Of a DNA stretch of 64,000 nucleotides, positions 10,251 to 36,924 are shown one piece after another; within the stretch, counting starts at the first letter, position 1, and each line of letters starts with the position of its first letter. The stretch covers positions 1 through 64,000 of IMG/VR virus record IMGVR_UViG_3300017743_000004; one strand, 5' to 3'. The stretch comes from a virus. Position numbers and translations under genes: made by a program. A model generated the notes under the pieces. It was not told the origin of the DNA and made no database searches. It worked only from the letters and a program-made list of their open reading frames with translations.

Positions 10251-11048
10251 ATGATTTCTCTAGTTTCACTTTTAAAAGAAGCTGTTTCGTCCCCCAAAGC
10301 TATTATATTAGCAGGCGCACCTGGAGCAGGAAAAGGTTCAGTATTAAAAGGACTAGATTTATCAGGCTTAAAAACATTTAACTTAGATAATAAGTTTATT
10401 GAATTATTAAAAACATCAAATGTATCCCTTGATTTAAAATCAGGGGACGCAGAATCAAGATCTAAGGCGGCACAAGCAATGGCCGCCGCAACTAAAAATC
10501 TTAAAACAGAACTCATCCCCCAGGCTATTGAAAATAAACAATCCTTTATATTGGATGGTACTGCAGCTTCCTCTAAACAAACTTTAGAATTAAAAAGTCA
10601 ATTAGAAAAAGTAGGGTATGAGGTGATGATGTTGTATGTGTATACTGATTTAGAAACATCTTTAAAACGAAATCAAGAACGATTTGAAAAGTCAGGTGGG
10701 GAAGATAGATCATTGATGCCTTCCATTGTTTTAACTACATGGAATAGTGTAACTAAAAACTTTGATACATATAAGAACGAATTTGAAAATTTTGTTTCTG
10801 TAGCAAACACAGGTAAAAGTGAGACTTTAAAGGACATTAAACAAATTTTAGATAAGTATGTTGAACCTTTTAGACCTACAGATACTAAACCTAAAACTGA
10901 CAAAGAAGAAGAACGTTCTAGAAAACAAGCCGAAAAGCTTAATCAAGAAGTACAACAATTTTTATCCTCGGATAAAGTAAAAGATATAATTGACTCTTCT
11001 GTTTCTTCAGAGGAAGCTCAATCTAAAATTAACGCATTCCTTAAATGA
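10251..11048 (+). CDS. P-loop kinase (zeta-toxin/adenylate-kinase-like), putative packaged protein
   Basis: This 265-aa protein carries a Walker A motif IILAGAPGAGKGS at about residues 18-30 and a kinase-like core with LYVYTDLETSLKRNQER, resembling zeta-toxin-type and nucleoside-kinase folds. The first ten residues, MISLVSLLKE, end in L-K-E before Ala, like a T4-type capsid-targeting leader cut by the prohead protease. The C-terminal 60 residues are charged and helical. It overlaps the next gene by ATGA. Its substrate could be a nucleotide, a sugar nucleotide or RNA. Packaging in the head is inferred. Confidence 0.6.
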   Translation: MISLVSLLKEAVSSPKAIILAGAPGAGKGSVLKGLDLSGLKTFNLDNKFIELLKTSNVSLDLKSGDAESRSKAAQAMAAATKNLKTELIPQAIENKQSFILDGTAASSKQTLELKSQLEKVGYEVMMLYVYTDLETSLKRNQERFEKSGGEDRSLMPSIVLTTWNSVTKNFDTYKNEFENFVSVANTGKSETLKDIKQILDKYVEPFRPTDTKPKTDKEEERSRKQAEKLNQEVQQFLSSDKVKDIIDSSVSSEEAQSKINAFLK

Positions 11049-14000
11049 AAAAACTCGTAGAATCTTTAGTAAATGCCGTTTTAGAGGCAGATGAAAAAGT
11101 TATTGGAATCTATGGTGGTGGATTTAAACCACCTACAGCAGGCCATTACGAGGTAATTGAAAATATCCTTAAAACTAACCCCCAGCTAGATAAACTTTAC
11201 ATAGCCGTAGGGCAAAAAGAAAGAGATGGTATTACACAAGCAGATTCACTTTTAGTGTTTGATGTTTATAAAAAATATTTTCCATTTAAAGTAGAATTTG
11301 TACCTGTAAAATCAGTTTACAATTATATTAAAGATTTTGTTGAGGAAAATCCTGATAAAACAGTAATTGCTTTTAGAGGAGCGAGGGAAGGACAAGAAGA
11401 AGATTTAGTGGATAACGAGACATTTAAAATGTTTTTAGATCGTTACGCACCTGATGTTGAATATAAGCAAGTTAAAACATTAATAACTGGTGTTTCAGGT
11501 ACTAAAGCTAGACAAGCATTAAAATCAGGTAATAAAGAAAAATTCTTTAAATATTTACCTACATCTTTATCAAATCTAGATAGAGATAAAATTTACGATA
11601 TTTTAACTGCTACAGTAGAGGAAAATGCTAAAAAAGCAGCTATAAATGCCTACTCAAGAGAATTAGCCTTAGGGTTAGAAGAACAACAAGGTAAAACCGG
11701 ATACAGAGCCGGCTCTATAAACCCAAAACTTCCTCAAGAAAGATTAAAAGACAGAGGATTTGCTATTAATCGCTCAACTACAGGTTTATTAGGTACAGGA
11801 TTTTATTTTTACGGAGATAAAGATCAAGCTGTAACATCCACCAAAGATGATGGGAGAGATAAATACACAGAAATTGATCTATCTCAATATAAACTCTTTA
11901 CCCCCTCTAACCCAGAAAAATTCTATAATGTAATTAAGAATTTAACACTGTTGTTAACAGATCTTATTTTTGATGAGAAAGTAAATTTTGAAGATGAAAA
12001 TGTAACTAAACAATTAGATTTATACTCAAGTTATTTATCTAAAGAATTAGGATTATCTGATTTAGAAATTGAATTAGCAGCACAATCTTTTATAGATGAT
12101 GTTTCCCAATCTAAAGATGGTGTTTTATTATCTAATCGTATCTTAAGTGATTATGATGGTATAGATTTAACAGGTACCTCATTAGATAATTTTGCAGTTG
12201 GTAGTTTAATATTTGATGGTAAGCTAAAGCCTGGATCTTATACTTCAACTAAAATACAAGATTTAGAGGAAGTTGGTGAAGCTTCTCAAAAACCTTACAA
12301 ATGGTCTAAATCAGAATCTTCTCGTTTTCCTGGTACTATAGATTATAGTTTTATAACAGATAAAGATACCGAATATCAAGCTTATTTTGCCCCTACCTCA
12401 CCAGGATTTTATGAATTTGGGTTTAGTGCAGAAGATGGTGATTTATCAGCAACTATAAATAAAGGTGAATTGTTTAGAGTAATGTCTACCATAGTAGATA
12501 TTATGAAAGATTTTGTAACAACAACACCATGGGATAGAATTGAATTTGAAGGATCTAAAGACTTTGAAAGAGTCGAGAAGGGCGTAGAAGATAAGCGTAG
12601 AGATAAACTATATAGAGCCTATCTTAAAAAGAACCTCTCCAACTTCCCAAATATAGATGTTTTCGTACAAGGTGGTGTAACTTACTTATACAATGAAGAT
12701 GAGAACAGTTTAACTGAAGTTGGTGAAGCTACTCAAAAACCATATAAATGGACAGTAAAAAGAAGTTACTGGGAGCCAACATTAATGGAAATTACTTATA
12801 GTTTTACTACAGATAAAGGTATAAAATATGAAGCATTATTCTACGAAAATGCAGATTATCGGTTTGATTTTCTGTTTTATCCTGAAGATGGAACTGCACT
12901 GGATGTTGTAAATAAAGGTGAATTGTTTAGAGTAATGTCTACCATAGTAGATATTATGAAAGACTTTATAAAAAAAGAAAAATGGAGTGTAATAGAATAT
13001 TCCTCAGCTAAACAATATGAGGATGATGACCGTAGAGAAAAATTATATACTGCTTACTTAAAAAAGAATCTCCCTGATGGTATTAGAGCAGAGGAAATGG
13101 GTGATGGAGATATTATGTTAACAAACCTAAATTTAAAGGAAGCAGACCCTAAAAAAGGTACAGGTAAAAAGCCAAAAGGCAGTGGGCGCAGATTATACAC
13201 AGATGAAAACCCAAAAGATACAGTAAGCATCAAATTCTCTACTAGACAAGATATTGTAGATACCTTAAATAAAAAATCATTTAAAGCTAAATCACATGCT
13301 CGCCAATCCCAGATTATCAACCTTATTCATCAAAGGGTAAGAGCAGCATATGGTAGAGCAAAAGATCCTGCTGTTAAAAAACGTTTAAAAACAGCTTTAG
13401 ATTATATTACAAAACGTAAAGAAGCATCTAAGAAAAAAACCCAACGTTTAAAAAAAGTAAGCGAAGGTGATACTTATGAAAAAATGGCTGCTAAAGGTAA
13501 AAAAGCAGGTAATTTAAAACAGGGTACTGTTAGAAAAAGATTAGGCATTAAAAAAGGTGAAAAAGTTCCAATGTCTAAAATTAATAAAGAAATCTCCCGT
13601 TTAAAGAAAATGGACAAAGATAAAGATAAAAAAGGTGTACAATTGGGGGATAAGAACCAAAAATATTATAAAGCCCTACAATTATCTAAAACTTTAAAGT
13701 CCACAACTAACATTAGAGAAGATATGAATGATACAGATGGGGAATTCCAAAAATTATTATCATCTTTAAGTGATTTTTTAAAACAAAAATTAGAATTAAA
13801 ATCATTACCAAACTTAGAATATATTGATGATGATGTTGAAAACGCTGAAAATATTCTCGGGAATACTGCTTATTATAATCCTAATACCTCTACTATTGTT
13901 TTATACACCAAAGGAAGACACCCTAAAGACATATTAAGGAGCTACGCTCACGAAATGATACATCATAAGCAAAACGAGGATGGTAAATTCGATGGCAGTA

Positions 14001-14110
14001 TTAACACTTTTAATATCAACCAAGACGACTATCTAAAACAAATAGAGGAGGAAGCATATTTAAACGGAAATATTTTATTTAGAAGTTGGGAAAACACTGT
14101 AGAAAAATGA
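11045..14110 (+). CDS. Multidomain protein: NMNAT-like, ADP-ribosyltransferase-like, HExxH peptidase-like
   Basis: This 1021-aa protein shows several modules. Residues 20-190 form a nucleotidyltransferase of the NMNAT/cytidylyltransferase type (GIYGGGFKPPTAGH, later GVSGTKAR in the place of the ISSTxxR motif). Residues about 218-400 resemble ADP-ribosyltransferases (YRAGS, then STTGLLGTGFYFYG). Residues about 410-700 hold a duplicated module of about 150 aa. Residues about 700-890 are very Lys/Arg-rich. The C-terminus holds HEMIHHK (His969, Glu970, His973), a zincin-type HExxH motif with a downstream EEEAYLNG. The first 14 residues (ending AVLE before Ala) resemble a capsid-targeting leader. 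T4 Alt, a packaged ADP-ribosyltransferase, is the nearest functional analogy. The domain calls are by motif only, and activity is inferred. Confidence 0.65.
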   Translation: MKKLVESLVNAVLEADEKVIGIYGGGFKPPTAGHYEVIENILKTNPQLDKLYIAVGQKERDGITQADSLLVFDVYKKYFPFKVEFVPVKSVYNYIKDFVEENPDKTVIAFRGAREGQEEDLVDNETFKMFLDRYAPDVEYKQVKTLITGVSGTKARQALKSGNKEKFFKYLPTSLSNLDRDKIYDILTATVEENAKKAAINAYSRELALGLEEQQGKTGYRAGSINPKLPQERLKDRGFAINRSTTGLLGTGFYFYGDKDQAVTSTKDDGRDKYTEIDLSQYKLFTPSNPEKFYNVIKNLTLLLTDLIFDEKVNFEDENVTKQLDLYSSYLSKELGLSDLEIELAAQSFIDDVSQSKDGVLLSNRILSDYDGIDLTGTSLDNFAVGSLIFDGKLKPGSYTSTKIQDLEEVGEASQKPYKWSKSESSRFPGTIDYSFITDKDTEYQAYFAPTSPGFYEFGFSAEDGDLSATINKGELFRVMSTIVDIMKDFVTTTPWDRIEFEGSKDFERVEKGVEDKRRDKLYRAYLKKNLSNFPNIDVFVQGGVTYLYNEDENSLTEVGEATQKPYKWTVKRSYWEPTLMEITYSFTTDKGIKYEALFYENADYRFDFLFYPEDGTALDVVNKGELFRVMSTIVDIMKDFIKKEKWSVIEYSSAKQYEDDDRREKLYTAYLKKNLPDGIRAEEMGDGDIMLTNLNLKEADPKKGTGKKPKGSGRRLYTDENPKDTVSIKFSTRQDIVDTLNKKSFKAKSHARQSQIINLIHQRVRAAYGRAKDPAVKKRLKTALDYITKRKEASKKKTQRLKKVSEGDTYEKMAAKGKKAGNLKQGTVRKRLGIKKGEKVPMSKINKEISRLKKMDKDKDKKGVQLGDKNQKYYKALQLSKTLKSTTNIREDMNDTDGEFQKLLSSLSDFLKQKLELKSLPNLEYIDDDVENAENILGNTAYYNPNTSTIVLYTKGRHPKDILRSYAHEMIHHKQNEDGKFDGSINTFNINQDDYLKQIEEEAYLNGNILFRSWENTVEK
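12272..13130 (+). repeat. Intragenic tandem duplication (about 150 codons)
   Basis: The two copies begin at 12272 and 12719 with near-identical starts encoding VGEA(S/T)QKPYKW. Inside them a stretch of more than 45 nt is identical (from 12457 and from 12910, encoding NKGELFRVMSTIVDIMKDF). The offset is 447-453 nt, a multiple of three, so the protein module is duplicated in frame. Nucleotide-level identity points to a recent event or gene conversion. Confidence 0.8.
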
Positions 14111-14691
14111 TTAGTTTATTAGAAATATACGAGCAAGAATCCCAAAAATTAGATCCCTCTAAAGTTGTAATCTTTTCAGATATGGATGGAGTGCTTACAG
14201 ACTTTGATAAGTACTATGAGGAGATTACAGGCGTAAATAAAAATTCTAAAATAGCTAAAGACAAAGATATGTTTTATGAGCTATTAAATGATGCCCTAGA
14301 TAGAAAAGGGATGGACTATAGAGATTTCTTTGCCCAAATGCCTCCCTTAGCAGACTATATGGAGTATTGGAATTATATTACCTCATTAGGTCGTCCTGTG
14401 TATTTGCTAACAGCCCCTATGAGACCACCTGAGTCAAGAGATGGAAAAGATGATTGGGCTAAAGAATATTTAACCGGAGTTAAAAAAGTATTATTTTTTG
14501 GAAGCAATTATAAACAAAAAGTAATGGATATTTACTTTAAAATTCCAAAAGATGACCCCTCTCGTAAAAACTTAATACTTATTGACGACAGAGAAGGTAA
14601 TATTACAAATTGGAGAAAAGCAGGTGGAACAGGTATACTACATACAAGCGCAGCCGATACTATCTCCCAGCTTAAAAAATTAGGTTTATGA
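14107..14691 (+). CDS. HAD-family phosphatase, 5'-nucleotidase-like
   Basis: The protein is 194 aa from ATG 14107. The in-frame TTG at 14086 is a less likely start because it lies inside the preceding gene. FSDMDGVLTDFD (Asp25, Asp27) is the HAD nucleophile motif I. YLLTAPM fits motif II and LIDDREGNI fits motif IV. The compact size resembles 5'(3')-deoxyribonucleotidases. The leader MISLLEIYE ends in I-Y-E like its neighbours, so it may be packaged. It could recycle nucleotides from degraded host DNA or act on a signalling nucleotide. Confidence 0.65.
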   Translation: MISLLEIYEQESQKLDPSKVVIFSDMDGVLTDFDKYYEEITGVNKNSKIAKDKDMFYELLNDALDRKGMDYRDFFAQMPPLADYMEYWNYITSLGRPVYLLTAPMRPPESRDGKDDWAKEYLTGVKKVLFFGSNYKQKVMDIYFKIPKDDPSRKNLILIDDREGNITNWRKAGGTGILHTSAADTISQLKKLGL

Positions 14692-16930: not shown

Positions 16931-17209
16931 ATGACCCCAGAACGTCTAAAAGAAATAATTAAAGAATCACTCCGAGATTGGTTTAAAAAAGAAGATTGGG
17001 TTCGAATCGATACCCAAGGTAATATTACTGGTCCTTGTGGTACAATGAAAAAAGGAAAAGCCACCACAAGATGTCTCCCCAGAAAAAAAGCTCAATCTTT
17101 AACTAAAGCACAAAGAGCAGCTACCGCTAGAAAAAAAGTTAGAGGTAGTAAAAAAGGCAAACAATTTGTAAGGAATACGAAAAAAGCTACTTACAAGAAA
17201 AAATCATAA
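16931..17209 (+). CDS. Small basic Cys-containing protein, putative packaged DNA-binding protein
   Basis: This 92-aa protein is strongly basic. The leader MTPERLKEIIKE ends in I-K-E before Ser. WVRIDTQGNITGPCGTMKK and TRCLPRKKAQSL form a small two-Cys motif, and the tail is a run of Lys/Arg/Ala/Thr. The composition fits binding to packaged DNA or RNA. The ATG is 7 nt after the upstream stop. Confidence 0.5.
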   Translation: MTPERLKEIIKESLRDWFKKEDWVRIDTQGNITGPCGTMKKGKATTRCLPRKKAQSLTKAQRAATARKKVRGSKKGKQFVRNTKKATYKKKS

Positions 17210-24127: not shown

Positions 24128-24421
24128 ATGGCTAAAAGGCAAAAAGCTTACGAATACAAAACAATTAATTCAAGAGGTGCTCATATGTCCTTGTTTAGAG
24201 AATTGGGTAGTGAAAGTTGGAAGCTCCATTCATGGGATGGTCCTGCAGTTAAAATCCATGATAGGGATCATATTGACTCAACATTCTCAAAAAATGAATA
24301 CCATTTGTATGGACGTTTTTTGGAAAAGGAACAATGGCAAGAACGTAAATCACAACGTGAAGGTATTCCATTCTACAAGAATCCATCTATGAAACATCTA
24401 ATCTCTGATTACAGAAACTAA
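24128..24421 (+). CDS. Small protein with one DGPA-type repeat
   Basis: This 97-aa protein contains HSWDGPAVKIHDRDH followed by YHLYGRFLEKEQW. This matches a single unit of the H-x-x-DGPA ... Y-x-x-G-x-L-x-x-E-x-W repeat found in some phage and eukaryotic giant-virus proteins. The rest is charged. It abuts the kinase gene (TAATG). The function is unknown, and the same upstream element as the FAD gene suggests joint expression. Confidence 0.5.
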   Translation: MAKRQKAYEYKTINSRGAHMSLFRELGSESWKLHSWDGPAVKIHDRDHIDSTFSKNEYHLYGRFLEKEQWQERKSQREGIPFYKNPSMKHLISDYRN

Positions 24422-24957
24422 TGAGGATAGGATTAACAGGTACAATGTCCGTTGGAAAAACAACTCTGGTGAATCAACTTATTGGTTTGCCGGAGTTGGA
24501 CGGCTATATCAAACGTACAGAGCGTTCTAAGTATTTGATGGAAATGGGAATTCCATTGAACACAGATTCGACATTAAAAGGTCAAACTGTATTTTTAGCA
24601 GAACGTGCTAGCGAGCTAATGCAAGATAAAATTCTTACAGATAGAACTGTAATTGATGTAATGGCGTTTGCATTTTTATCTCAATCAATGACAAACAAGG
24701 AGAAAAAACATTTCCTTAAACTAGCATCTAAACTCATCCCAGAATATGATGTTATTGTATATTTGTCTCCAAACGGAATTCCTATTGAAGATAATTCTGT
24801 AAGAGAAACAAATCCATTCTATAGAAATCAAGTTGACTCTGTTATCAGATCATTTCTTCAAGAACATAGAAGCAAAATTAACTCACTTGTAAAATTAGAG
24901 AATCCTAATAATAGACTATTAGAATTTAAAGAGAGGATAGTTTGGGAGAGAATGTGA
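24421..24957 (+). CDS. P-loop kinase, NadR/AAA_28-like
   Basis: The protein is 178 aa with Walker A GTMSVGKTTL at about residues 6-15. A DRTVIDVMAFA block follows (the DRS/DRT motif of nucleoside and ribosylnicotinamide kinases), then YDVIVYLSP and a lid-like region with RETNPFYRNQVD. This architecture fits the AAA_28 group that includes the kinase part of NadR. Deoxynucleoside, nicotinamide riboside or another small molecule are possible substrates. The neighbouring genes give no direct choice, but NAD-linked domains occur elsewhere in the window. Confidence 0.65.
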   Translation: MRIGLTGTMSVGKTTLVNQLIGLPELDGYIKRTERSKYLMEMGIPLNTDSTLKGQTVFLAERASELMQDKILTDRTVIDVMAFAFLSQSMTNKEKKHFLKLASKLIPEYDVIVYLSPNGIPIEDNSVRETNPFYRNQVDSVIRSFLQEHRSKINSLVKLENPNNRLLEFKERIVWERM

Positions 24958-29624: not shown

Positions 29625-30497
29625 ATGTCAATAAAGCATTCAAAATATAAGAATACGGGTATTTTATTTGAACTTTTAGTAAGAAGGGTTACAGCTGATA
29701 CCCTCAACGAAAAGGAATCCCCCGCATTAAAATTAATTAAAAAATATTTTTCTAAAACAGAATTATCTAAGGAGTTAAAACTTTACGAATCTGTATCTAA
29801 ATCAAACGGGATATCAGAAAACCAAGCTAACTCTTTAATTCAAACTTTATTAGAAAATTCTAAAAGACTAAATAGAAAAACTTTAAAGTCTGAAAAGTAT
29901 AACTTAATTTCTGAGATTAAGGGTTTTTATAATCTAGATGAGTTTTTTAAAACTAAACTTCCTAATTATAAAACATTTTCCTCATTCTTTACACTTTTGG
30001 AAATTTACAACACCAATCTCTATATCAACCCAGATGAGATTGTTAAAAACAAACAAACCCTTCTAGAACAAATTTGTAAAGCAAATATCTCTGAAAATTC
30101 AGTTAAAGAAAACTTAGTAAATGAGTTTCAAACATACGATAAAGATTTAAGATTACTTACTTATAAACTCTTATTAGAAAAATTTAACACCAAGTACTCT
30201 AACCTTAATAGATATCAGAAACAAATCTTAAAAGAATTTATTACCTCTGTAGATTCTACTCCTAAGTTAAGAGAAATTTATAATTTAAGATCTTCTCAAT
30301 TAAAAGCAATTTTAGAAACATTTAATAAAAAAATTACAGATAATGTAATTAAAATTAAATTGAATGAAGTTGTGTCTTTATTAGAAGTTAAAACTAATAA
30401 ATGTTCTGTTAAATCAAATGATATTTTTAATTTACTTCAATATTTTGAATTAATTGAAGAATTAAATAAAATTCATGGACCTAAGAGATCGAATTAA
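29625..30497 (+). CDS. Prohead-region helical protein between portal and protease
   Basis: This 290-aa, Lys-rich, all-helical protein begins MSIKHSKYKNTGILFELLVRR. The same YKNTGILFELLVRRVTADT block occurs in other marine T4-like phages, always unnamed and near the portal gene. Position suggests a prohead core or portal-associated assembly role like T4 gp67/gp68, but there is no sequence evidence for that identity. It overlaps the next gene by 23 nt. Confidence 0.55.
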   Translation: MSIKHSKYKNTGILFELLVRRVTADTLNEKESPALKLIKKYFSKTELSKELKLYESVSKSNGISENQANSLIQTLLENSKRLNRKTLKSEKYNLISEIKGFYNLDEFFKTKLPNYKTFSSFFTLLEIYNTNLYINPDEIVKNKQTLLEQICKANISENSVKENLVNEFQTYDKDLRLLTYKLLLEKFNTKYSNLNRYQKQILKEFITSVDSTPKLREIYNLRSSQLKAILETFNKKITDNVIKIKLNEVVSLLEVKTNKCSVKSNDIFNLLQYFELIEELNKIHGPKRSN

Positions 30498-30720: not shown

Positions 30721-30956
30721 TGGGCTACGGCTATAAATTAAAGGAAAACCAAGATCCTAAACAATTCCAACAAGAGAGAATTGAAGGATTTGAAAAAATT
30801 AGTGATAGAATGTTTGAGATTGCCTCTCTATTAAGAAAAGCAAAATTAAACACTAAACAATTTTATGAGGAAAATCCTGACTCATATAATGTTGTATACG
30901 GAACAGATTTGATTCAGGACTATTTAGAAGATATAACTACATTACTAAACAAATGA
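30720..30956 (+). CDS. Small hypothetical protein, prohead region
   Basis: The 78-aa helical protein starts MGYGYKLKENQDPKQFQQER and has YLEDITTLLNK at the end. Similar small proteins sit between portal and protease in other T4-like phages, where core proteins gp67 and gp68 are found. There is no motif beyond helices. It overlaps both neighbours by a few bases, so it is certainly part of the head operon. Confidence 0.55.
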   Translation: MGYGYKLKENQDPKQFQQERIEGFEKISDRMFEIASLLRKAKLNTKQFYEENPDSYNVVYGTDLIQDYLEDITTLLNK

Positions 30957-31786
30957 AAACAATTCAAGAACATTACATAGCTTTAAAAGAGGGAAAAACC
31001 TCTAAATCTTATTTTCATAAGTTAGCTAAATCATTATTTCCACATTTGGTATCTAACCAAAATTCATTTAATGATTCTCTTAAAATCTTAAAAAATAGAG
31101 GTATTATTACTGAAGAGGTTAAAGCCGTAGAGAAAAAAACATCTAAAGATGTAATGGATGTTCAGGCTAAGCAATACAACTATCAAGATAAAAACAATAT
31201 TGATACTGTATATGGGGCTGAATTTTTAAAGGGATTTTATGCGGAAATTAAAGACCCTGCTAATAAAGATAAAACCCCAGATGATATTAAAGAAATTGTT
31301 AGAAAAAATTTAACTAAATCTGCTACTCATTATACAGAAAATTCCGCTTTTGGAATCAAGGGTATCGGATATGGTAAAGCAGAACAACCTAAAGAAGTAA
31401 CAGGTAAATATAAGTCTTCAGGATATGGTGATTTGAAAGAATCTAAAGTTCCTACAATGACTGAACTTTTACTTGAAGGTAAAAAGAAAACAAATTCAGT
31501 AGAAGATAAATTATCCGAAATTGAAGAGAGTGGTGCAATCGTTACTTTAGAAACTCAAATCGAGGCTGTAGAAGAAATGATTGAAACAAAATGTCAAAGA
31601 TTAGAAATGATCTCCGAAGACGATAACCTATCAGAGTTAGTAGATCCAAAGAGAATTAAGGAACTGCAAAAGGAAATTAAGATCTTAGAAAAGAGAAAAG
31701 CCAAAATGCAGAAAATGTACGAAAAACTAACCGGAAAGGCTAAGAAAAAACAAATCGTAGATGAAACAAATACTGATAGAGACTAA
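30953..31786 (+). CDS. Putative prohead core protein
   Basis: The protein is 277 aa. The first 13 residues, MKTIQEHYIALKE followed by Gly, resemble the T4 internal-protein leader and end in a perfect L-K-E site. The next part is basic and helical, and the last 100 residues form a long coiled coil (LETQIEAVEEMIETKCQRLE, LVDPKRIKELQKEIKILEKRK). Position just before the protease fits a core or internal protein. It overlaps the protease gene by 26 nt. Confidence 0.55.
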   Translation: MKTIQEHYIALKEGKTSKSYFHKLAKSLFPHLVSNQNSFNDSLKILKNRGIITEEVKAVEKKTSKDVMDVQAKQYNYQDKNNIDTVYGAEFLKGFYAEIKDPANKDKTPDDIKEIVRKNLTKSATHYTENSAFGIKGIGYGKAEQPKEVTGKYKSSGYGDLKESKVPTMTELLLEGKKKTNSVEDKLSEIEESGAIVTLETQIEAVEEMIETKCQRLEMISEDDNLSELVDPKRIKELQKEIKILEKRKAKMQKMYEKLTGKAKKKQIVDETNTDRD

Positions 31787-32357
31787 TATCTTTAAACCTA
31801 CTGTTTCTATCAATGAAGGTAAAACCTCATCTGATGGAAATTTACTAGTACAAGGTATCCTTTCTACAGCCGAAAAACAAAACGGCAATGGTAGAGAGTA
31901 TCCAATGGAAATCCTTGAAAGAGAAATTAATAAATACATGGAGGTAGTTAAGGAAAACAGAGCATTAGGTGAGTTAGATCACCCTGATTCTCAAGTTGTT
32001 AACCTTAAAAACGTATCCCATAAAATCAACGATATGAAATTCGTTGGAAAAAAAGTAATGGGCACTATTGAAATTTTACCTACCCCATCCGGAAATATTT
32101 TAAAAGCACTATTTGCAAGCAACGTTCCTGTAGGAATTTCTTCTCGTGGGATGGGCTCTCTAAAACAAGTAGGAGAAGTAATGGAGGTGCAAGACGATTT
32201 CGAACTCTTATGTTATGATTTTGTCTCTACCCCTTCTAACCCAGGATCCTACATGAGTCCTTTAAACGAATCTCTTACTGAATCCAATATTTATAATAAA
32301 ACCAATTCTATCATTACAGATATTTTATGCTCTAACGATAGATGTCCAATTTACTAA
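31761..32357 (+). CDS. 21: Prohead core protease (gp21-like)
   Basis: This 198-aa serine protease of the T4 gp21 type has catalytic His74 in GELDHPDS and Ser127/Ser128 in VGISSRGMG, with the conserved GREYPMEILEREI near residue 45. The N-terminus contains SINE before Gly20, a likely autocleavage site. It would process the scaffold, the capsid protein and leader-bearing internal proteins at (L/I)xE sites. Unlike T4, an extra gene separates it from the scaffold gene. Confidence 0.9.
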   Translation: MKQILIETNIFKPTVSINEGKTSSDGNLLVQGILSTAEKQNGNGREYPMEILEREINKYMEVVKENRALGELDHPDSQVVNLKNVSHKINDMKFVGKKVMGTIEILPTPSGNILKALFASNVPVGISSRGMGSLKQVGEVMEVQDDFELLCYDFVSTPSNPGSYMSPLNESLTESNIYNKTNSIITDILCSNDRCPIY

Positions 32358-35256: not shown

Positions 35257-36924
35257 ATGGAATTAGTAAACAACTTAGTCAACGAATCCGCAGAGTCGTT
35301 TAGAAACATGCAAAGCGACGCTGCAAGATTAGCTGGTAAGTGGGAAAAGACAGGTTTACTTGAGGGCTTAGATAATGAGCTTGAAAAGAACAACATGTCA
35401 CTTATCCTCGAAAACCAAGCTAAGCAATTATTGAACGAAAGTTCATTAACAGGTACTGGTGGTACCTTCGCAGCAGGAACTGGTGAGCAGTATGCCTCTG
35501 TAGTCTTACCTATGGTAAGAAAGATTTTTGGACAGGTAGCTGCCCAAGAATTCGTATCTGTTCAACCAATGAATTTACCTTCAGGTCTGGTATTCTTCTT
35601 AGATTTCCAATATGGAACTAGTAAGACTCCTTTCTCAGCTGGTGATTCGCTTTATGGAAACACTGGTTCCGACCAGTTCCCATTCTCAACTGCTGAATCT
35701 AATCTGAATCAAGCAAACACTGGTGGATTATATGGTGCAGGTAAGTTCTCTTACTCTACAAATAATCATACTGCTTCTACTGGTATTACTTCTGCCTCAG
35801 CAACTTTTGCAGATGTTAATTTTGACTCCAGATTATCTTCATCAATTGTAAATGGAGATATTGTTAAATTAACTGTTGGAACTGCTAGAACTACTTTAGC
35901 GGATTTAGATAAAGAAGCTGTAAGAAGCTTTATTATCTCCTCAGGTTCTAATGTTACCTCAGATAATATCCTTCCTGCTTTTACAAAGTATGATGAAGGT
36001 GCTAATACTGTAACTTTCTTTACTACTGGATCGGATATTACAATCCACCAAACTAGTTCATATGTAGTAGAATACAGTAAGCAAACCAAAGATAACGCAA
36101 GAGGTGATTTCGAAGCAGGTGCTGCATTTGCTGTACCTAATGCTCAGTCTGCTGCTAATATCTCAATCCCAGAAATTAATATCGGAATGAGATCATTAGG
36201 TATTATTGCTAAGACTAAAAAGCTGAAGGCAGTATTCACTCCTGAACTCGCTCAGGACTTGAACGCTTACCAAGCTTTAGATGCCGAAGCTGAAGTTACC
36301 AACATCATGTCTGAGTACATTTCCTTAGAAATTGACTTGGAAATTCTTGATATGTTGATGGCTGATGCTTTAACAACTGAGTTCTGGTCTGCTAAGAACA
36401 ACAGAGTAATTAATGATGCCAAGACTGCTTTCGAAGCTGAAGGAACAAACGGATTCTACAACACACAGGGTCAGTGGTTCCAAACATTAGGTACCAAGCT
36501 TCAGAAGGTATCTAACAAGATCCACCAATTAACTTTAAGAGGTGGTGCCAACTTCATGGTAATCTCTCCAACTGTAGCTACTGTTATTGAGTCAATCCCA
36601 GGATTCGCCTCAAACTCTGATGGTGATGCTGCTAACATGGAGTACGCGTTTGGTGTACAAAAGGCAGGTACTTTGAACAGCCGCTACACTGTGTACAAGA
36701 ACCCTTACATGAATGAAAATACCATTCTGATGGGTTACAGAGGTACTCAGTTCTTAGAGGCAGGTGCTGTATTCGCTCCTTATGTACCGTTGATCCAAAC
36801 TCCATTAGTATACGATCCTGACACGTTCGTACCTAGAAAAGGTCTCTTAACACGCTACGCTAAGAAGATGTTAAGACCAGAATTCTACGGTAAGGTCTTC
36901 GTGAATGGATTGAACACTCTCTAA
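35257..36924 (+). CDS. 23: Major capsid protein (gp23-like)
   Basis: The protein is 555 aa. The N-terminal delta region ends at QAKQLLNE61, a matching (L/I)xE site for gp21, followed by SSLTGTGGTFAAGTGEQYA and VVLPMVRKIFGQVAAQEFVSVQP, the family's N-arm. RGGANFMVISPTVATVIESI and the C-terminal KKMLRPEFYGKVFVNGLN are typical of gp23. It forms the icosahedral shell hexamers. Codon usage is richer in C-ending codons than in neighbouring genes, in keeping with very high expression, and a strong terminator follows. Confidence 0.95.
   Translation: MELVNNLVNESAESFRNMQSDAARLAGKWEKTGLLEGLDNELEKNNMSLILENQAKQLLNESSLTGTGGTFAAGTGEQYASVVLPMVRKIFGQVAAQEFVSVQPMNLPSGLVFFLDFQYGTSKTPFSAGDSLYGNTGSDQFPFSTAESNLNQANTGGLYGAGKFSYSTNNHTASTGITSASATFADVNFDSRLSSSIVNGDIVKLTVGTARTTLADLDKEAVRSFIISSGSNVTSDNILPAFTKYDEGANTVTFFTTGSDITIHQTSSYVVEYSKQTKDNARGDFEAGAAFAVPNAQSAANISIPEINIGMRSLGIIAKTKKLKAVFTPELAQDLNAYQALDAEAEVTNIMSEYISLEIDLEILDMLMADALTTEFWSAKNNRVINDAKTAFEAEGTNGFYNTQGQWFQTLGTKLQKVSNKIHQLTLRGGANFMVISPTVATVIESIPGFASNSDGDAANMEYAFGVQKAGTLNSRYTVYKNPYMNENTILMGYRGTQFLEAGAVFAPYVPLIQTPLVYDPDTFVPRKGLLTRYAKKMLRPEFYGKVFVNGLNTL

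Follow-up and report, generated by a model that had tools for sequence, protein, structure and literature searches.

A multi-module gene of a T4-like phage as a likely precursor of head-internal proteins

A 64.0-kb stretch of a 68.6-kb virus record (IMG/VR record IMGVR_UViG_3300017743_000004; below, the window) raises the question why a single phage polypeptide should contain several domains of unrelated biochemistry, as Pfam, module comparison and predicted structures find for its open reading frame (ORF) of 1021 amino acids (aa). The ORF is intact at 11045..14110 on the + strand, and its ATG start overlaps the stop of the preceding gene (ATGA). The initial annotation had read it as a possible injected chain that could make NAD and consume NAD and whose own peptidase could release the modules. 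Every motif it quoted is real and not due to chance, because a near-identical homologue (L002) and hundreds of relatives exist. We consider it likely that the gene instead encodes a polyprotein from which head-internal proteins arise: gp21 would cut it, and the products would be injected. The source is a T4-like phage, since the window encodes terminase, portal, a gp21-type head protease and a gp23-type capsid protein, the latter 56% identical to its counterpart in Flavobacterium phage immuto; the host is probably a member of the Bacteroidota.

The multi-domain layout proposed initially holds (Table 1), including a packaging-type leader with a cut site at residue 14 (LVNAVLE/A; a slash marks the predicted cut) and a zincin. 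Likewise, the suspected duplication is real: the DUF6934-like modules at residues 413-561 and 562-699 (Pfam DUF6934 match 2e-9) are 50% identical (E 8e-36). The basic tract is also present; in fact, it splits into two distinct modules, K (+22) and T (+17), which are probably nucleic-acid-binding proteins. AlphaFold2 on the full chain, with an alignment of 33 sequences, gave a predicted local distance difference test score (pLDDT) >90 in the nucleotidyltransferase (NTase) and HExxH modules and did not resolve the ADP-ribosyltransferase (ART) region, and its low-confidence breaks at 559-562, 698-723, 805-824 and 884-897 coincide with [ILV]xE sites at 561, 699, 807 and 892. Together with those at 14, 193, 213, 409 or 412 and 558 or 561, these sites are the module borders. 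The N-terminal helix would steer the chain into the prohead core, and the gp21-type protease would cut after [L/I/V]-x-E near these positions. This would yield seven mature proteins of 9.6-22 kDa, namely an NTase, an ART-like enzyme, two DUF6934 proteins, two strongly basic proteins and a zincin, which would remain with the DNA and enter the host cell together with it.

The association of motif and border was counted in three ways. Among the 17 chains examined first, alignment ends were 4.3-fold enriched in [ILV]xE with A, G, S, N or D as the next residue, with control motifs near 1, and in 116 chains [ILVM]xE lay at most 6 residues from 426 of 867 collapsed junctions, against 157±32 in shifted placements. 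With module edges set by homology to the window's modules, the motif stood within 8 residues of 408 of 453 edges (113 expected), whereas the same edges had [ILVM]xD in 100 cases (129 expected), [ILVM]xK in 163 (161) and [ILVM]xxE in 156 (120); as the chains are related, these counts are not fully independent. The cut-site profile reads L, I or V, then N, K or T, then E, followed by N, G or A, and T4 gp21 cleaves after L/I-x-E (PMC9026906). The leader site VLE/A has V and not L or I at P3, and V is also found at the aligned capsid site of immuto. At the aligned gp23-like site, the capsid proteins carry LLNE/SS (window) and IVSE/AN (immuto), the gp21 homologues of both phages have motif sites near their own ends, and [ILVM]xE is dense in core-like proteins and not in tail proteins.

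Several points weigh against such processing. The motif is short, roughly one random position in four has one no more than 8 residues away, and similar motifs occur inside folded domains (residues 39, 101, 582, 651, 1002); therefore, accessibility must matter. The end of the K module has a site in only 22 of 38 cases. A gp21 homologue, which speaks for processing, was found in 11 of 28 relatives' records, the complete immuto included, but as most of the 28 are fragments, its presence is checkable in some only. Besides, alignment-end junctions of other long ORFs at the same loci are enriched as well (30% vs 17%), and still so once obvious members are removed (26% vs a base rate of 16%). This mild enrichment is perhaps due to other head-operon proteins, and the control is still a caveat.

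As to who cuts, the initial annotation had suggested a peptidase in cis, and the chain could accordingly be a polyvalent protein whose HExxH zincin frees the modules, either within the head or once injected. Polyvalent proteins are phage chains with 2-15 unrelated domains and predicted to be injected; the zincin is their hub domain and proposed processor, ARTs are common, and chains with both ART and zincin are among those described (Iyer et al. 2017, PMC5512222). Both the concept and the zincin fold description agree with our chain, and the HExxH module is present in nearly every relative. However, the borders bear the capsid protease motif, which also marks the leaders of neighbouring proteins without HExxH, the capsid protein and core proteins, and a second, different HExxH module in some chains makes the peptidases look like cargo. 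The HExxH domain as sole releasing peptidase was therefore rejected, and cis-processing as a whole appears unlikely. Even less probable is that the multi-enzyme is injected uncut as a larger analogue of T4 Alt, with [LIV]xE merely marking helix ends between domains. A leader is present, and Alt itself is packaged after losing only a 7-residue propeptide (PMC9026906), but no similar enrichment is seen for the control motifs at these borders, and a seven-domain chain of such size would be an awkward load for the tail tube. Furthermore, the nucleotidase is fused to the chain in many relatives, whereas the window encodes it on its own, leader included; this stand-alone form is a natural comparison for the fused module.

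The precursor reading also draws on the relatives. Direct searches with the window chain found 16 loci in IMG/VR and, as the only cultured relative, immuto, and scans with NTase and HExxH alignments gave at least 588 and at least 508 relatives, respectively. After removal of near-duplicates from the matches listed, 118 chains were left, and the 98 complete ones show 37 module orders, with NTase and HExxH both present in 87. The window chain thus represents a family that is very large among uncultured T4-like phages and whose members keep the N-terminal HIGH-superfamily NTase and the HExxH zincin, with the rest shuffled. A deoxyribonucleotidase module occurs in about half of the chains tested, the order is changed to NTase-HExxH-T-...-K in L013, Pol-beta NTases are found in L101 and L109, L086 has a KptA/Tpt1-like stretch (weak match, 0.0046), and L091 carries an Fe/Mn superoxide dismutase (4.5e-29) and a plastocyanin (6.8e-14). 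The modules of L002:6001-9264 are 99-100% identical to those of the window, plus a single additional module of 67 aa (SRYRAIEKRGDKYYYIQDN..) precisely between K and T; judged by sequence comparison, this looks like a one-unit insertion at a predicted joint and hints at recent module gain or loss. Searches with K, T and HExxH in cultured phages retrieved only immuto, plus weak matches in Pelagibacter and Synechococcus phages. Such a repertoire also bears on a third possibility, that of a core or scaffold protein with degenerate enzymes, whose modules serve assembly and are then cleared from the head. Core proteins are typically rich in gp21-type sites, and most T4 core fragments exit the head (PMC9026906); against this, the NTase and zincin catalytic motifs are invariant, and the modules of L091 just described have strong family scores, which leaves this possibility with very little probability. 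As a side observation, superoxide dismutase and plastocyanin-like domain lie between predicted cut sites of the same chain (L091:3062-6829).

For the NTase, the initial assignment to the NMNAT type was right as to the superfamily and went too far as to the substrate. Its motifs GIYGGGFKPPTAGH (residues 21-34) and GVSGTKAR (149-156) are conserved family-wide, with G25, G26, F27, K28, P29, P30, H34 and R156 invariant and S151 and T153 nearly so. With [H/T]xGH and SxTxxR motifs and the matching predicted fold, the module certainly belongs to the HIGH superfamily by fold. The substrate pointers are split: Foldseek ranks PPAT/CoaD on top (best E 3e-7, target-normalised template modelling score ~0.8 vs ~0.6 for NadD), the archaeal NMNAT MJ0541 ranks first by profile (6e-4), and the SGTxxR motif is similar to archaeal NMNAT. 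Since the structure search puts PPAT above NadD, an assignment of the substrate as NMN was rejected. The homologue in immuto, gp88 (NC_055915; L001:11173-13896), is annotated as NMN adenylyltransferase NadR, which looks misleading, given that the protein is built of several modules, among them a Pol-beta-type NTase, and has two HExxH motifs. A P-loop ATPase at 24421-24957 of the window (GLTGTMSVGKTTL) resembles NadR-type kinases by eye and could partner the NTase module. In the zincin, HEMIHH spans residues 969-974; H969, E970, H973 and the downstream glutamates E1001 and E1003 are invariant in relatives, and the model (helix, three strands, HExxH helix, Glu helix) has the fold described for zincins of polyvalent proteins.

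The stretch called ART-like, YRAGS...STTGLLGTGFYFYG, sits in a conserved module of ~195 residues (214-412) that recurs in independent contigs. Neither family (Pfam, PHROG) nor PDB searches gave a recognised match, and direct searches with the window module in phages, plasmids, genomes and PDB returned nothing real. Two apparent relatives (L020, L180; E 1e-6) proved on inspection to be chance matches hinging on AAQSFIDDVS. All but one of the true relatives (L181, L187-L192, L194, L205) were obtained with a degenerate DNA pattern for GLLGTG[FY]YF; the remaining one came from a profile scan. The module is seen in four contexts, flanked each time by [ILV]xE sites: after the NTase; opening a chain, with a DUF6934-like module next (L190); followed by a second HYD1-like stretch and by HExxH (L194); and in a chain with a Pol-beta NTase (L205). 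AlphaFold2 on the module alone with its family reached pLDDT 78 (predicted template modelling score 0.75). Among predicted viral structures, the best named matches of this model are ART-PolyVal predictions (PolyVal ADP-ribosyltransferase, E 3e-3, probability 0.87; ART-PolyVal-like, 8e-3, 0.89), with nothing significant in Foldseek against solved structures in PDB. Within the module, R7, S30 and Y40 in the first two motifs are invariant, R where the H of the H-Y-D type is expected, and conserved acids are present (D157, D160, D167), to none of which a catalytic role is assigned. On these models, the ART call is moderately supported: we regard an ART fold as quite likely, and ADP-ribosyltransferase activity as less so. 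As no Alt-family match appeared in Pfam, PHROG or PDB, a relationship to T4 Alt was rejected. Two side observations concern HYD1-type sequences: in L194:10704-12278, the window-type ART is followed by another ART-like stretch of a different kind (YHYT.., HYD1 type), and in L136:3603-6011 such a stretch (Pfam Tox-ART-HYD1, 1.4e-4) occupies the slot of the window's ART. As to the proposed union of NAD-making and NAD-consuming enzymes, gp21-type sites bound both modules, and this ART is missing from most relatives that have the NTase; therefore, the two are probably separate mature proteins.

Around the gene, a 92-aa protein of net charge +22 with leader LKEIIKE/S (window 16931-17209) is likely a packaged DNA-binding protein. 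Two proteins between portal and gp21 (29625-30497 and 30953-31786) contain 6-7 [ILVM]xE per 100 aa and are candidate core proteins like gp67/gp68; a PHROG search gave no match for either.

Table 1. Predicted modules of the 1021-aa chain and other genes of the window (a slash marks the predicted cut)
Feature	Position	Strand	Basis
Leader, residues 1-14, amphipathic helix ending ..NAVLE/A; predicted capsid-targeting propeptide	11045..11086 (next module starts at 11087)	+	sequence; helix 2-13 in model; similar leaders in relatives and neighbours
HIGH-superfamily NTase module, residues 15-193, TxGH and SGTxxR motifs	11087..11623	+	pLDDT >90; Foldseek PPAT/NadD, best E 3e-7
Short tag module NAKKAAINAYSRELALGLEE, residues 194-213, recurring helical spacer ending LEE/	11624..11683	+	motif in 34 of 169 chains
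ART-like module, residues 214-412: GYRAG, S..GLLGTG[YF]YF, YDGIDLT..D.F..GSLIF	11684..12280	+	module family; AlphaFold2; viral ART-PolyVal predictions closest
DUF6934-like module a, residues 413-561; conserved cut after 409 (LEE/VGEA) or 412	12281..12727	+	
DUF6934-like module b, residues 562-699; conserved cut after 558 (LTE/VGEA) or 561	12728..13141	+	50% identical to a
Basic module K, DPKKGTGKKPKGSGRRLYTDE.., residues 700-807, net +22	13142..13465	+	distant match in Pelagibacter phages
Basic module T, GDTYEKMAAKGKKAGNLKQGTVRKRL.., residues 808-892, net +17	13466..13720	+	
HExxH zincin-type module, residues 893-1021	13721..14107	+	pLDDT >90; helix, three strands, HExxH helix, Glu helix
HEMIH motif, residues 969-973	13949..13963	+	H969, E970, H973 invariant
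P-loop kinase-like protein, leader SLLKE/A, upstream of the 1021-aa ORF	10251..11048	+	
5'-deoxyribonucleotidase (NT5C-like, HAD), own leader IYE/Q; C-terminal polyprotein module in many relatives	14107..14691	+	
Small basic protein; C-terminal ..NLNE/ELCAKGKAYIRKRKAAGEKSSAYLSGRAVKVCKGQM.. is a polyprotein module in relative L013	15869..16330	+	
T4 gp21-type prohead protease, predicted processing enzyme; own sites SINE/G, PLNE/S, LTE/S	31761..32357	+	phrog_207, E 1.3e-53
Scaffold-like acidic core protein, 9.3 [ILVM]xE per 100 aa	34127..35254	+	
gp23-type major capsid protein, predicted maturation site QLLNE/SS at residue 61	35257..36924	+	aligned QIVSE/A in immuto; 56% identity

Among known systems, the chain joins polyvalent proteins and T4 internal proteins, its closest known relatives in kind. 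With polyvalent proteins it shares many unrelated domains and a zincin; ARTs are common there, to which the ART-like module would correspond, and the viral-polyprotein analogy is drawn in PMC5512222 itself; there, processing by the embedded zincin is proposed and the ARTs are of the H-Y-D type, whereas here gp21-type sites lie at the borders, the phages are T4-like, and a constant HIGH-type NTase module does not feature in the available parts of their description. The T4 proteins IPI-III and Alt (PMC9026906) likewise have a targeting helix ending in an [L/I]-x-E type site, a gp21 homologue, small basic proteins of like size and ART cargo, but they are separate genes with one N-terminal cut each, in contrast to one leader for many modules with internal cuts. 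With T4 Alt the window chain has in common the idea of a head-packaged ADP-ribosyltransferase; there is no sequence match, and the R-S-E glutamate was not identified in the ART-like module. In the head and ejection proteins of phiKZ and SPN3US (PMC5694885, PMC10052503), the capsid protease also cuts after glutamate (A-x-E, S-x-E), with several cuts per substrate and a large internal protein load; those cuts trim propeptides, whereas the ones predicted here would part mature functional domains. The cultured homologue immuto gp88 shares the NTase and HExxH modules and the gene order with primase, exonuclease and nucleotidase; it differs in that it begins with a Pol-beta-type NTase, contains HExxH a second time and has no ART, DUF6934, K or T module, and it is annotated as a single enzyme. 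The host of immuto is Flavobacterium sp. LMO8. The initial statement that no protein of this layout is described stands for this set of modules within the literature searched, although the concept as such is described with the polyvalent proteins (PMC5512222). In line with this, the accessible parts of a 2022 survey of viral NAD systems (PMC9503650) list NadM, NadR and head-packaged ARTs and no such fusion. Nothing relevant was found on a tailed-phage polyprotein, which is weak evidence, as subscription papers were mostly outside the scope of the search.

On balance, we lean towards the more general view that tailed phages have true polyproteins, in which one precursor would hold an exchangeable bank of injected effectors that gp21 splits at head maturation, with the [LIV]xE borders as standard joints for insertion and shuffling. 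Polyprotein processing is a strategy known from RNA viruses. If the view is true, capsid maturation doubles as polyprotein processing, which is not described for tailed phages in the literature searched, where PMC5512222 gives an analogy only. It would also supply an easy rule, "cut at [LIV]xE", by which to read the hypothetical or mis-annotated genes of this kind in uncultured aquatic phages, a very large set (more than 500 contigs in each of two scans), and it would predict the small proteins that are first into the cell: nucleotide enzymes, ART-like enzymes, superoxide dismutase, plastocyanin and peptidases.

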